This document shows, piece after piece, positions 57,774 through 60,925 of a stretch of 64,000 nt of DNA. The DNA comes from Candidatus Koribacter versatilis Ellin345 (GTDB lineage: Bacteria > Acidobacteriota > Terriglobia > Terriglobales > Acidobacteriaceae): NCBI RefSeq assembly GCF_000014005.1, contig NC_008009.1, positions 4,092,001 to 4,156,000 of the forward strand. Reading direction: 5' to 3'. Under the pieces are notes generated by a model. The model did not search any database, was not told the origin of the DNA, and saw only the letters and a program-made list of their open reading frames with translations. Positions within the stretch are counted from its first letter, which is position 1, and every line of letters starts with the position of its first letter. Position numbers and translations under genes: made by a program.

Positions 57774-58661
57774 TCACTCCGGCAGTAGCTGTACATCCAT
57801 CACCGCGAGCCGCTCTTTCTCCCCGATGATCTCTACCTCGCGAATACGTCCCTCATCCGAAATCGAGAGACGCACAGCCCGGAATAGTTTGCCACGCGGC
57901 GCCATCACCACACCGACTTCGCCATCCACCAACACCGTCCGCGCCAAGCGTGCGCCTTCTGCGAATTGGATCGCACCACGAGCCCAAGTTTCGGCGCCGC
58001 GAATTTCGATGTCCTTCCCACCAGTCGCTGAGAATTTATCAATGCGCACCACGACATTAGGATCGAGCACCGAGACCAATCCTTCAAAGTCCCTCGCCCG
58101 CAGCGCCGTAAGAAACGCATCCACCACTCGCCGATGCGCATTGAGCACGTTGCGTTCAATCGCCGGCGGCCCCTGAACTCTGCGACGCGCGCGGCTCGCA
58201 AGCTGACGCACCGCAGCCGGCGTCTTGTCCAACACCGCCGCAACTTCCTCGAACGACTGCCCGAACAAATCATGCAAAACAAACGCCAGCCGCTCCGCCG
58301 GACTCAGCCGGTCCAGCACCACCAGCAGCGCGATTCCTACCGAGTCTGCGAGCATCGCTTCCTGCTCTGGATTGTTTCTTTTTTGAGTCGACGCGACCGG
58401 CTCCGTAACTTCTGTATCCAGCGCTTCCTCGCGCCGCGCTTTCCGCGAGCGCAGCGTGTCCAGACATACCCGCGCCACCACCGTCGTCAGCCACGCATTC
58501 AGGTTATTCACCTGTTGCGTGTCCGCGCGATTCAGGCGCAGCCATGCTTCCTGCACAGCATCCTCGGCCTCAGTCGCCGAGCCCAGCATCCGGTACGCCA
58601 CCGCGCGCAAATGACTGCGGTTCTCTTCAAATCGTTCTGCGAGGAATTTTTTCTCGTCCAT
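57774..58661 (-). CDS. ECF41-type RNA polymerase sigma factor
   Basis: The 295-residue protein has sigma region 2 (about 10-80, with AYRMLGSATEAEDAVQEAWLRL) and region 4 (about 115-170, with LSPAERLAFVLHDLFGQSFEEVA and TPAAVRQLASRARRRV). A C-terminal SnoaL-like extension (about 180-295, with GGKDIEIRGAETWARGA) follows, the hallmark of the ECF41 group, where it regulates activity. It is divergent from an AhpD/carboxymuconolactone decarboxylase-like gene, the classic ECF41 partner. Both genes have an ECF41-like promoter. Confidence 0.95.
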   Translation of the reverse strand: MDEKKFLAERFEENRSHLRAVAYRMLGSATEAEDAVQEAWLRLNRADTQQVNNLNAWLTTVVARVCLDTLRSRKARREEALDTEVTEPVASTQKRNNPEQEAMLADSVGIALLVVLDRLSPAERLAFVLHDLFGQSFEEVAAVLDKTPAAVRQLASRARRRVQGPPAIERNVLNAHRRVVDAFLTALRARDFEGLVSVLDPNVVVRIDKFSATGGKDIEIRGAETWARGAIQFAEGARLARTVLVDGEVGVVMAPRGKLFRAVRLSISDEGRIREVEIIGEKERLAVMDVQLLPE

Positions 58662-58662
58662 C

Positions 58663-58689
58663 TGTCACATTCTCCCACCGTCGTTCGTC
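58663..58689 (+). promoter_or_regulatory. ECF41-type promoter for the AhpD-like gene
   Basis: TGTCACA (58663-58669), 16 bases, then CGTC (58686-58689). This is the ECF41 target consensus as I remember it (TGTCACA-N16-CGTC). It ends 51 bases before ATG 58741. Confidence 0.8.
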
Positions 58690-58697
58690 ACTTGGTT

Positions 58698-58724
58698 GAC
58701 GAACGAAATTCACTTTTTGTGACA
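58698..58724 (-). promoter_or_regulatory. ECF41-type promoter for the sigma gene (mirror image)
   Basis: On the minus strand TGTCACA (58724-58718) is followed by 16 bases and CGTC (58701-58698). It has the same spacing as the plus-strand copy. It ends 36 bases before the ATG at 58661, so the sigma factor is probably autoregulated. Confidence 0.8.
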
Positions 58725-58740: not shown

Positions 58741-59244
58741 ATGAAATCAAGAATGACCAATCCCGCCTTAATCCTTCCCGAAGCCATGCAGGCCCTGCGC
58801 ACCATCTCGACGCTGATTGAGAAGGCCGGCGTGCCGGTCACCACCCTGCAACTGATCGAGCTGCGCGTCAGTCAAATCAATGGTTGCAGCGTCTGCCTTG
58901 AGATGCACGCATTCGTTGCCAAGAAGGCAGGCGAGACTGACACTCGCCTCGTCGCCCTCGCCGGCTGGCGCGACGCTCCTTACTACTCCGATGCCGAGCG
59001 CGCCGCCCTCGCCCTTGCCGAGCATGTCACGCGCCTGAGCGATCGCAGCGATCCGGTTCCCGACACAGTTTGGAACGAAGCCGTCCGCCACTATGATGAG
59101 AAAGGCCTCTCCGCCCTCCTCCTCGCAATCACCTCGATCAATACCTGGAACCGGTTGAACGTCGCAACACGACAGGTTGCGGGTGAGTGGATGAAATTCC
59201 CGGAAGCGGTGAAGATGCTGGAAGAATACGCCGTGGCAAAATAA
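58741..59244 (+). CDS. AhpD/carboxymuconolactone decarboxylase-family protein
   Basis: The 167-residue protein carries the CxxC plus His signature (INGCSVCLEMHA, near residues 47-58) typical of AhpD-like peroxidase adaptors and carboxymuconolactone decarboxylases. The N-terminal helix pair and C-terminal WNRLNVATRQVAGEW complete the fold. It is divergent from the ECF41 sigma gene and is the likely ECF41 target. Its role is probably peroxide or electrophile stress. Confidence 0.9.
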   Translation: MKSRMTNPALILPEAMQALRTISTLIEKAGVPVTTLQLIELRVSQINGCSVCLEMHAFVAKKAGETDTRLVALAGWRDAPYYSDAERAALALAEHVTRLSDRSDPVPDTVWNEAVRHYDEKGLSALLLAITSINTWNRLNVATRQVAGEWMKFPEAVKMLEEYAVAK

Positions 59245-59295: not shown

Positions 59296-60925
59296 CTACC
59301 CAGTCGGAAAGAACATCGAGAACACCGTCCCGTGATTCGCGTCGGCAGTGCTGCTACGAACCCGCAGCGTGGCACCGTGCTGGTCCAGGATTTCCTTCGA
59401 GATCCAAAGCCCCAGGCCGGTGCCTGTCATTCCCTTCGTAGTGAAGAAAGGTTCGAAGAGTCGCTGTAGCACTGGCCGCGACATCCCCGTTCCCGAGTCG
59501 CACAGAGTGATGCGAACTCCTTTTTGTTGGCTGGAGAGATCGACAGAATCTCGAAGCCGAACCACGATGCGTCCACCTGGACGACAAGCATCGACCGCAT
59601 TATTGATCAGGTTCACGAATACTTGCCGCAGATCGCCCTCACGGCCCACAATCTCGCCACGCGTAGCAAAGTCTTTCTCAACCGTGAGACCAGCATTTCG
59701 CAACCGGCCCGCCAGCAACGTGATCACGTTGTCGACAATATCTTGCAGGAACACTGCCTTCTTGTTCGTGCTCTCGCGATGAAAGCGCAACGTTTGGGTT
59801 GTAATCTTCGCGACCCGATCCAGTTCCTGCTGCGCCGACTTCAGGAAAGCCATGCGCTGCGCTCGTTCATCCGTGACTTCGACCAGGTACAGCAGATTGG
59901 TTACGGCTTCCAGCGGGTTATTGATCTCGTGCGCGATGCTCGCCGCGAGACGGCCCACCACGGCAAGTTTCTCTGCCTGCACCAATAAACGCTCCGCCTT
60001 GTTCCGGTCGGAAACGTCGGTTCCCAGCGCAATAATGCCAGTCACGTTGCCATCGGAATCCCGAACCGGTTGGTACGCGAAATCCAGAATTCTCGGCTCC
60101 GGCGGAAACCCTGCCTTTCGCGCAAGGAGAATCTGGGAACCATGCGCCACATGCGGCTCCCCGGTGTGGTAAACGCGATCGAGAATCTTGAGATAACCTT
60201 GTTCGACAGCTTCCGGAACAGCCTCGCCTACCGGCTTTCCCAGGAGTTCACGGTCCCCGATCAATTCCCGGTAGAGTGCATTGGTGAACTCAAAAACGTG
60301 CTCAGGGCCCTTCAGCACCGCCACAAAAGCTGGCGCCTGGGTTAGCAGTTCCAACAACCGTTGCCGTTCATGCTGCAACTCCGCCAGGAGATGCGAGCGC
60401 TGCTTCTCCAACTGGACCCGCCCCGTCGTCTCCGAGCATGTAACCAGCGTCCCGCAGATCGTTCCATCCGCGGAACGGACGGGGCTGTAGCTGTACGTCC
60501 AATAGACGTCCTGCAGCACTCCATTGCGGTAGATCGGAACCAACTGGTCTTCGTACCAACATGCATCGCCCCGCGACATCACGGCCGCAATGTCCGGCCC
60601 AATGATGTCCCAAATTTCGGGCCAACATTCCGGGCCGCTCTGTCCCAATGCCCGCGGATGTTTGTCCTCTCCTAAGCTTGGCCGATACGCATCGTTGTAA
60701 AACTGCGTGAGTTCCTTGCCCCACCACAGGAACATCGGCTGCCGGTTCGCCAGCAGAAGGTTCACTGTAACCACGAGCACATCCGGCCAGGCCCTCAATT
60801 GGCCCGACGGGGGTTCGGCTCCAGTCGAACGCACGCGTCCGGTCCGCCATTTCACCGGCGCCGAAGATGCGTTGGGTTGGCTGCTGCAAGTCGTTAGGAT
60901 CGTTGGAATTGGAGGGTGTCGCCAT
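59296..60925 (-). pseudogene. PAS-type sensor histidine kinase with a frameshift near its N-terminus
   Basis: The family N-terminus (MATPSNSND...GEMADRTRAFDWSRTPVGP, starting at 60925) lies in one frame. The rest (AWPDVLVVTVNLLL... through the kinase) lies in another. Deleting one G from a GGG run at 60792-60794 (plus strand CCC) restores GPIEAWPDVL, the expected consensus, giving a 542-residue protein. The rest has a PAS4-like domain, a second PAS, and a complete HisKA (IAHEINNPLEAV) and HATPase. Either a real +1 mutation or a sequence error is possible. If real, a short start at 60855 could still give a truncated kinase. Confidence 0.8.

Follow-up and report, generated by a model that had tools for sequence, protein, structure and literature searches.

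The interlocked promoters and their flanking genes

The window, a stretch of 64,000 nucleotides from Candidatus Koribacter versatilis Ellin345 (G000:C1:4092001-4156000, in a genome that is a single contig), carries a divergent gene pair, an ECF41-like sigma gene and an AhpD-like gene, with two putative ECF41-type promoters facing each other between them. The features are as follows:

57774-58661, minus strand: ECF41-like sigma gene, 295 aa, with sigma2, sigma4 and a C-terminal SigJ-like extension (Pfam, NCBIfam, profile and fold)
58662-58676, minus strand: sigma ribosome-binding stretch GGGAGAA, then TGTGACA (the -35 box of the opposite promoter), then one base before the ATG (read from the sequence; relatives are alike in layout)
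58663-58689, plus strand: predicted promoter toward the AhpD-like gene, -35 TGTCACA at 58663-58669, -10 CGTC at 58686-58689 (ECF41 consensus as given in PMC3426412)
58686-58701, no strand assigned: common centre CGTC-N8-GACG, predicted to be a single melted region for both directions (from the gap statistics and the S. meliloti start)
58689, minus strand: predicted +1 of the sigma transcript (G; 28-nt leader), placed by the S. meliloti spacing
58698, plus strand: predicted +1 of the AhpD-like transcript (G; 43-nt leader), placed by the S. meliloti spacing
58698-58724, minus strand: predicted promoter toward the sigma gene, -35 TGTCACA at 58724-58718, -10 CGTC at 58701-58698
58741-59244, plus strand: AhpD-like / carboxymuconolactone decarboxylase (CMD) gene, 167 aa, with a CSVC motif (Pfam CMD 9e-17; ahpD_dom)

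Interleaved, the two promoters form a 62-bp mirror, TGTCACA-N16-CGTC-N8-GACG-N16-TGTGACA. A previous sequence-only reading had placed TGTCACA-N16-CGTC on both strands, at 58663-58689 and 58724-58698, and both copies are indeed exact and lie at these coordinates. Its view of them as an ECF41-type promoter pair between the sigma and AhpD-like genes is backed by sequence, family matches and conservation, and is probably right. The exact symmetry that it reported is confined to the promoter boxes (-35 and -10) and the inner 9-10 bp and does not extend to the spacers, in which 6/16 positions are complementary vs a mean of 5.3/16 when halves of different mirrors are paired. Similarly, the arms of the palindromic centre are present (CGTTCGTCA at 58682-58690, TGACGAACG at 58697-58705), while the longer centre (CGTT/AACG) is not conserved among mirrors. 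The pattern TGTCACA-N14-18-CGTC has 2 matches in the 64-kb window, both from the mirror, where 0.17 would be expected, and only 1/100 shuffled windows contained at least two. In the whole genome (5.65 Mb) it has 7 matches at 6 places vs 4 for a reversed control pattern; two of these six places fall inside ORFs (L014; L017/L018).

The sigma protein matches Pfam Sigma70_r2 and r4_2, and NCBIfam SigJ at residues 7-286, below that model's cut-off. Like Mycobacterium tuberculosis SigJ (5xe7), which it matches by profile over 11-286 (E 3.7e-69), it includes the C-terminal domain in a nearly full-length match. The same structure is the best PDB match of the predicted fold (pLDDT 88), followed by SigG1 (7qh5) and, lower down, NTF2-type folds. 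Identity over the fold alignment is 33-34%, and the whole predicted model fails to superpose on 5xe7 (TM 0.32), as expected if the domains were differently placed. A string search of the protein found no WLPEP, NPDKL-type or DGGG string; NPDKL and DGGGR are names of conserved ECF41 C-terminal motifs. The 5xe7 profile match over 11-286 and the NTF2-type matches show the large, SnoaL-like C-terminal extension of ECF41 sigmas, and Pfam SnoaL gave no match in the protein at E 0.001. Two further ECF41 traits reported in PMC3426412 were found at the locus, the TGTCACA-n16-CGTC promoter and the adjacent CMD gene.

Because the other sigma matches in the same genome reach only 26-34% identity and at most 39.1 bits, the window sigma is taken, by sequence, as the sole one of its type there. 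Beside the sigma/AhpD pair, neither an anti-sigma gene nor the gene of a DNA-binding regulator was recognised, the neighbours being a 93-aa ORF without a Pfam match and a histidine kinase. The latter, a PAS-histidine kinase gene at 59296-60855 on the minus strand, runs toward the AhpD-like gene.

Recurrence and register of the mirror

Among 396 genomes of the phylum, scanned with the inner gap free from 0 to 30, the mirror occurs in 4, each time with a gap of 8, and the reversed control pattern in none. A wider scan with exact boxes and the same free gap, covering one genome for each of 84,980 species, returned at least 119 stretches, against a chance expectation of about 0.45 in 257 Gb for all gaps together (uniform bases). 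Eighty of these stretches were examined, and with the window and L053 they provide 82 mirrors. Among these matches listed, the gap is 8 in 79/82, 9 in 2 and 11 in 1, and gaps of 7 and 10 are absent. The 80 listed stretches come from Actinomycetota (53), Pseudomonadota (18), Acidobacteriota (5), Chloroflexota (2), Myxococcota (1) and candidate division FCPU426 (1), with Rhizobium (14) and Kribbella (8) as recurring genera. The 73 distinct gap-8 mirrors among the matches listed are on average only 41% identical at their free positions; thus, the spacing of the boxes persists as the letters between them diverge.

Sigma ORFs are found on 75 of the 80 listed stretches. On each of the other five, tblastn detected an AhpD-type gene, and on three of them (L063, L081, L102) a sigma fragment as well; with such genes on every stretch, a mobile repeat is an unlikely origin of the mirror. 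At L097 the mirror stands 56 bases from the stretch end and the sigma side lies beyond it. At L082 (L082:672-1675), an exact mirror is flanked by AhpD on one side and, in the sigma gene's place, by a DoxX-like gene on the other, with no sigma match on the stretch by tblastn.

What else might be conserved in the mirrors was assessed by comparing complementarity within mirrors with that between halves of different mirrors, using 36 of the 73 distinct mirrors after near-duplicates were dropped. The z values were -0.21 (spacer), -1.04 (N8 inner), 0.05 and -0.50. As the two halves of a mirror are no more complementary to each other than halves drawn from different mirrors, nothing seems to be conserved but the two promoters, and an operator or cruciform was rejected by this test. 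As RNA, the window element folds at -23.4 kcal/mol (z -4.2); a role as an RNA hairpin was set aside, as neither predicted transcript spans both arms.

The favoured gap becomes intelligible when start sites are considered. In S. meliloti, an ECF41-type motif lies 9 nt upstream of a mapped start (PMC3616915), a spacing from one species that may leave either 8 or 9 bases between motif and +1, depending on how it is counted. Applied to the window, it would make each +1 a G opposite the last C of the other promoter's -10 box. Unidirectional promoters of the clade (18, to which some loci contribute more than one) read CGTCA-N6-TGA after the -35 box and spacer, with A at 1 in 13/18, T at 8 in 10/18, G at 9 in 11/18 and A at 10 in 11/18. 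CGTCA ends in the complement of TGA, so that a gap of 8 lets the same bases act as -10 box and, on the other strand, as initiator. Judging by these sequences, this double use accounts for the favoured register of 8. Since point mutations might create an initiator at other gaps as well, a further cause of the register, such as a common bubble, is likely. The mirror also has a regular position relative to the sigma gene: in the 77 listed mirrors with a sigma ORF, the sigma start lies at +1 in 27, at -1 in 17 and further on in 12, and 21 have no assigned distance because a GTG inside the box was taken as start. Seen from the sigma strand, the AhpD-side -35 box reads TGTGACA and separates the sigma ribosome-binding stretch from the start codon.

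To avoid selection by promoter pattern, loci were also sampled by protein, searching with the sigma protein in 396, 346 and 337 genomes at E limits of 1e-25, 1e-45 and 1e-40. Of 138 matches, 133 were read (5 weak ones from the 396-genome search were left out): the canonical motif strings are missing from 78 and represented at least once in 54, and the fragment L047 was excluded. A promoter within one mismatch, with a spacer of 16, stands near sigma at 46 of the 78 clade loci. Among these 46, an opposing promoter (at least 9/11 positions) occurs at gap 8 in 11, 9 in 5, 11 in 4 and 4 in 1; the remaining gaps between -4 and 25 are empty. Three of the 11 gap-8 cases are the window itself (L001) or lie in genomes chosen by their mirror (L206, L228); leaving out the four anchored loci that these three genomes contribute, gap 8 accounts for 8/42. 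The register is therefore looser here (8, 9, 11) than in the exact-match scan. At 32/78 loci no such promoter was found in the 300 bp before sigma (31 when spacers of 15-17 were allowed), and 5/78 have pairs at a negative offset, mostly in a back-to-back layout (L024, L032, L180, L205, L227). Because of these two groups, the second of which includes the near relative L024, the mirror is not essential. Among the 54 motif-bearing, canonical ECF41 loci there is no interlocked pair, but just 7/54 have a usable promoter near sigma; three have negative-offset pairs, and one canonical promoter has GACG 8-11 nt downstream.

The sigma proteins themselves separate the two groups. Motifs were counted in the 68/77 sigma ORFs beside listed mirrors whose end lies inside the stretch, the remaining 9 being cut at the C-terminal side. 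WLPEP, in the sigma2-sigma4 linker, is present in 1/68 (L073) vs 19/20 in L033-L052, an NPDKL-type motif in 0/68 vs 12/20 (string search), and DGGG in 2/68 vs 17/20, both times near the start of a stop-to-stop ORF of more than 420 residues, ahead of the sigma domain. The absence of the NPDKL-type motif from all 68 mirror-side ORFs is a stronger fact than the control by canonical loci (0/54). In a tree of 87/150 sequences, made by a quick method with SH-aLRT support only, the 29 motif-bearing sequences and the 58 others form two sides of one branch (SH-aLRT 99), and mirrors are scattered over the second, motif-poor side with 15 changes. As the motif strings are nearly absent and the branch is supported at 99, the window sigma is called, on motifs and tree, a member of a clade beside ECF41 and not of ECF41 itself. 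The promoters are of ECF41 type; the sigma is non-canonical by the motifs tested.

On the other side of the listed mirrors, 38/70 partner ORFs of at least 100 aa are AhpD-like, although some picks may be wrong frames. Nine other partners were recognised by Pfam: three NAD(P)H-binding, one PNPOx, four glyoxalase-type and one ABC.

A promoter that may limit itself

We propose that the 62-bp element probably works in both directions as an autoregulatory promoter that limits itself, and that it consists of two interlocked ECF41-type promoters, both read by the adjacent sigma. The proposal builds on the observed sequence, recurrence and favoured register, and extends, as we infer, to sigma recognition, start sites, exclusion and self-limitation. 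One promoter would drive the sigma gene, giving positive autoregulation, and the other the AhpD-like gene. As the -10 boxes face each other across 8 bp, each transcript would begin at a base that pairs with the opposite -10 box, and the two open complexes would need to melt one and the same 16-bp segment. That segment would have room for a single polymerase at a time, so that the two directions would exclude each other. It is tempting to speculate that under strong activation this competition would tie sigma and enzyme output to each other and limit runaway self-activation. To our knowledge, no anti-sigma is known for the window sigma. Competition of this kind has been described for Escherichia coli bidirectional promoters when strongly activated, often via polymerase alone, and their constrained transcription lowers cell-to-cell noise (PMC12825309). 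As a counterpoint, the same paper reports that five E. coli bidirectional promoters, when tested at their basal level, were transcribed too weakly for competition to arise.

Part of this arrangement has been described before. Wecke et al. (2012; PMC3426412) reported TGTCACA-n16-CGTC as the ECF41 promoter, tested for two species, and the window promoters are identical to it. Among 55 divergent sigma/COE loci they found the motif in front of the sigma gene in 36 and in front of the COE gene in 41; with promoters before both genes, autoregulation in the divergent layout was already implied. The window resembles the ECF41/COE loci of that paper in its promoter, its CMD/oxidoreductase/epimerase neighbour, its divergent promoters, its C-terminal extension and the lack of a recognised adjacent anti-sigma. 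It differs in that its sigma belongs to the clade beside the WLPEP/NPDKL/DGGG bearers and that its promoters are interlocked in a favoured register. The main text of PMC3426412 makes no mention of such a geometry ('palindrom', 'inverted' and 'symmetr' have 0 matches), and no description of an interlocked mirror was found in the literature searched. What appears new is therefore the interlocked mirror geometry, whereas the ECF41 promoter and divergent sigma/COE loci were already known. The recurrence of its register in other genomes, the unusual part of the finding, went unnoticed in the sequence-only reading. There is also a likeness to the sigma70 bidirectional promoters of E. coli and Salmonella, whose -10 and start overlap reciprocally on opposite strands (PMC12825309, PMC10268837). 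These have been defined by divergent starts 7-25 bp apart on opposite strands (PMC10268837), with 18 as the commonest spacing in E. coli and 10 and 23 also common (PMC12825309). The window geometry would show the reciprocal overlap of PMC10268837 if +1, which is predicted, lies 9 nt after CGTC. In contrast to the sigma70 cases, the window would involve an ECF sigma, two full -35 boxes, predicted starts 9 bp apart and two protein-coding outputs, one of them the sigma itself.

The same sequence might instead hold two ordinary ECF41-type promoters packed tightly by chance, the register being inherited or leader-constrained and without regulatory meaning. Divergent loci with promoters on both sides have already been counted (PMC3426412), and the back-to-back layout of L024 and others is an alternative arrangement. 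A leader constraint is conceivable too, since one -35 box lies between the sigma ribosome-binding site and the ATG, and among the matches listed the start codon is nearly fixed from the mirror, as given above. Such a constraint, however, would fix the mirror relative to the sigma gene and not the -10 boxes relative to each other; gaps of 7 or 10 would leave both promoters whole, yet neither occurs in the 82 exact mirrors listed. Inheritance alone is also hard to hold when free positions are so divergent and mirrors are scattered over the clade. We consider this reading unlikely, though it deserves to be kept in mind.

Two other readings carry less weight with us. The AhpD-side promoter could be the only active one, with the sigma made from another promoter and the mirror copy vestigial, a view with which the COE genes as sole detectable targets in Bacillus licheniformis and Rhodobacter sphaeroides agree (PMC3426412). 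But the R. sphaeroides genes form an operon, so sigma rides on the target transcript there, and the sigma-side box is exact in the window and, since the search required it, in every exact mirror, where decay would otherwise be expected; we regard a vestigial copy as very improbable. Alternatively, the palindrome could be the operator of a dimeric repressor or activator (a CGTCA-N6-TGACG half-site pair), with the promoters secondary. The palindromic centre would suit this, as would the A at 28 (58/73) and the T at 35 (61/73) that extend beyond the CGTC boxes of the gap-8 mirrors among the matches listed. Against it, the A after CGTC also recurs in the unidirectional promoters, the complementarity within mirrors equals that between different mirrors, and the window has no visible regulator gene beside the pair, which makes an operator hardly credible.

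More tentatively, the bidirectional promoter read by its own sigma could characterise the clade beside ECF41, which occurs in at least five named phyla. It is possible, if somewhat doubtful, that this clade uses a register-favoured promoter with one bubble for two directions, in which each -10 box is the partner's initiator, competition replaces an anti-sigma and sets the sigma/effector ratio with low noise, and the effector is swappable (AhpD, NAD(P)H-binding, PNPOx, glyoxalase-type, ABC). A recurrent, geometry-constrained bidirectional promoter offers a testable answer to how sigmas of ECF41-type systems, without an anti-sigma, escape runaway self-activation. If true, bidirectional promoters, described for the sigma70 type in the papers cited, would extend to an ECF sigma with two coding outputs. 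Moreover, the recurrence beside related sigma genes in several phyla suggests that the layout itself matters.

Other candidate targets in the genome

The sequence-only reading had also seen the locus as a self-contained switch. This is supported only in part: beyond the mirror, two more exact promoters stand before other genes in the genome that are plausible targets (L019, L020). The L019 promoter precedes a CMD gene (L019:1573-2133; G000:C1:4613680-4614237) with an in-frame TGA in the context C-P-F-TGA; the promoter's centre is also CGTC-N8-GACG, by eye without the second -35 box. From its sequence, this gene is likely to encode a selenoprotein. One in-frame TGA is present in 12/13 other matches of the gene among 247 phylum genomes, in 7 of those 12 in the context C-x-F-TGA; tRNA-Sec is present in the genome, and the RNA after the L019 TGA forms a hairpin fold (z -1.95).

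In a genome of the same family, a sigma ORF is followed, about 0.8 kb downstream, by an 81% homologue of this CMD gene (L280:82-717 and 1501 onward; G073:C93). The sigma ORF matches the window sigma at residues 128-291 only, and no promoter within one mismatch was seen at L280.

The L020 promoter precedes, with a very short leader, a two-gene membrane-protein operon on the minus strand (L020:602-1476) whose genes overlap, the second being weakly DUF1440/YqhR-like, below cut-off. The only homologue found for this operon outside its own genome, among 247 genomes, is in G241, where it neighbours a canonical ECF41 sigma that has a promoter with one mismatch (L277, L294). Wecke et al. (PMC3426412) concluded that ECF41 sigmas generally control a single target. 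Contrary to this, the exact promoters at L019 and L020, together with the L020 homologue beside an ECF41 sigma in G241, are sequence hints that the window sigma may have more than one target.
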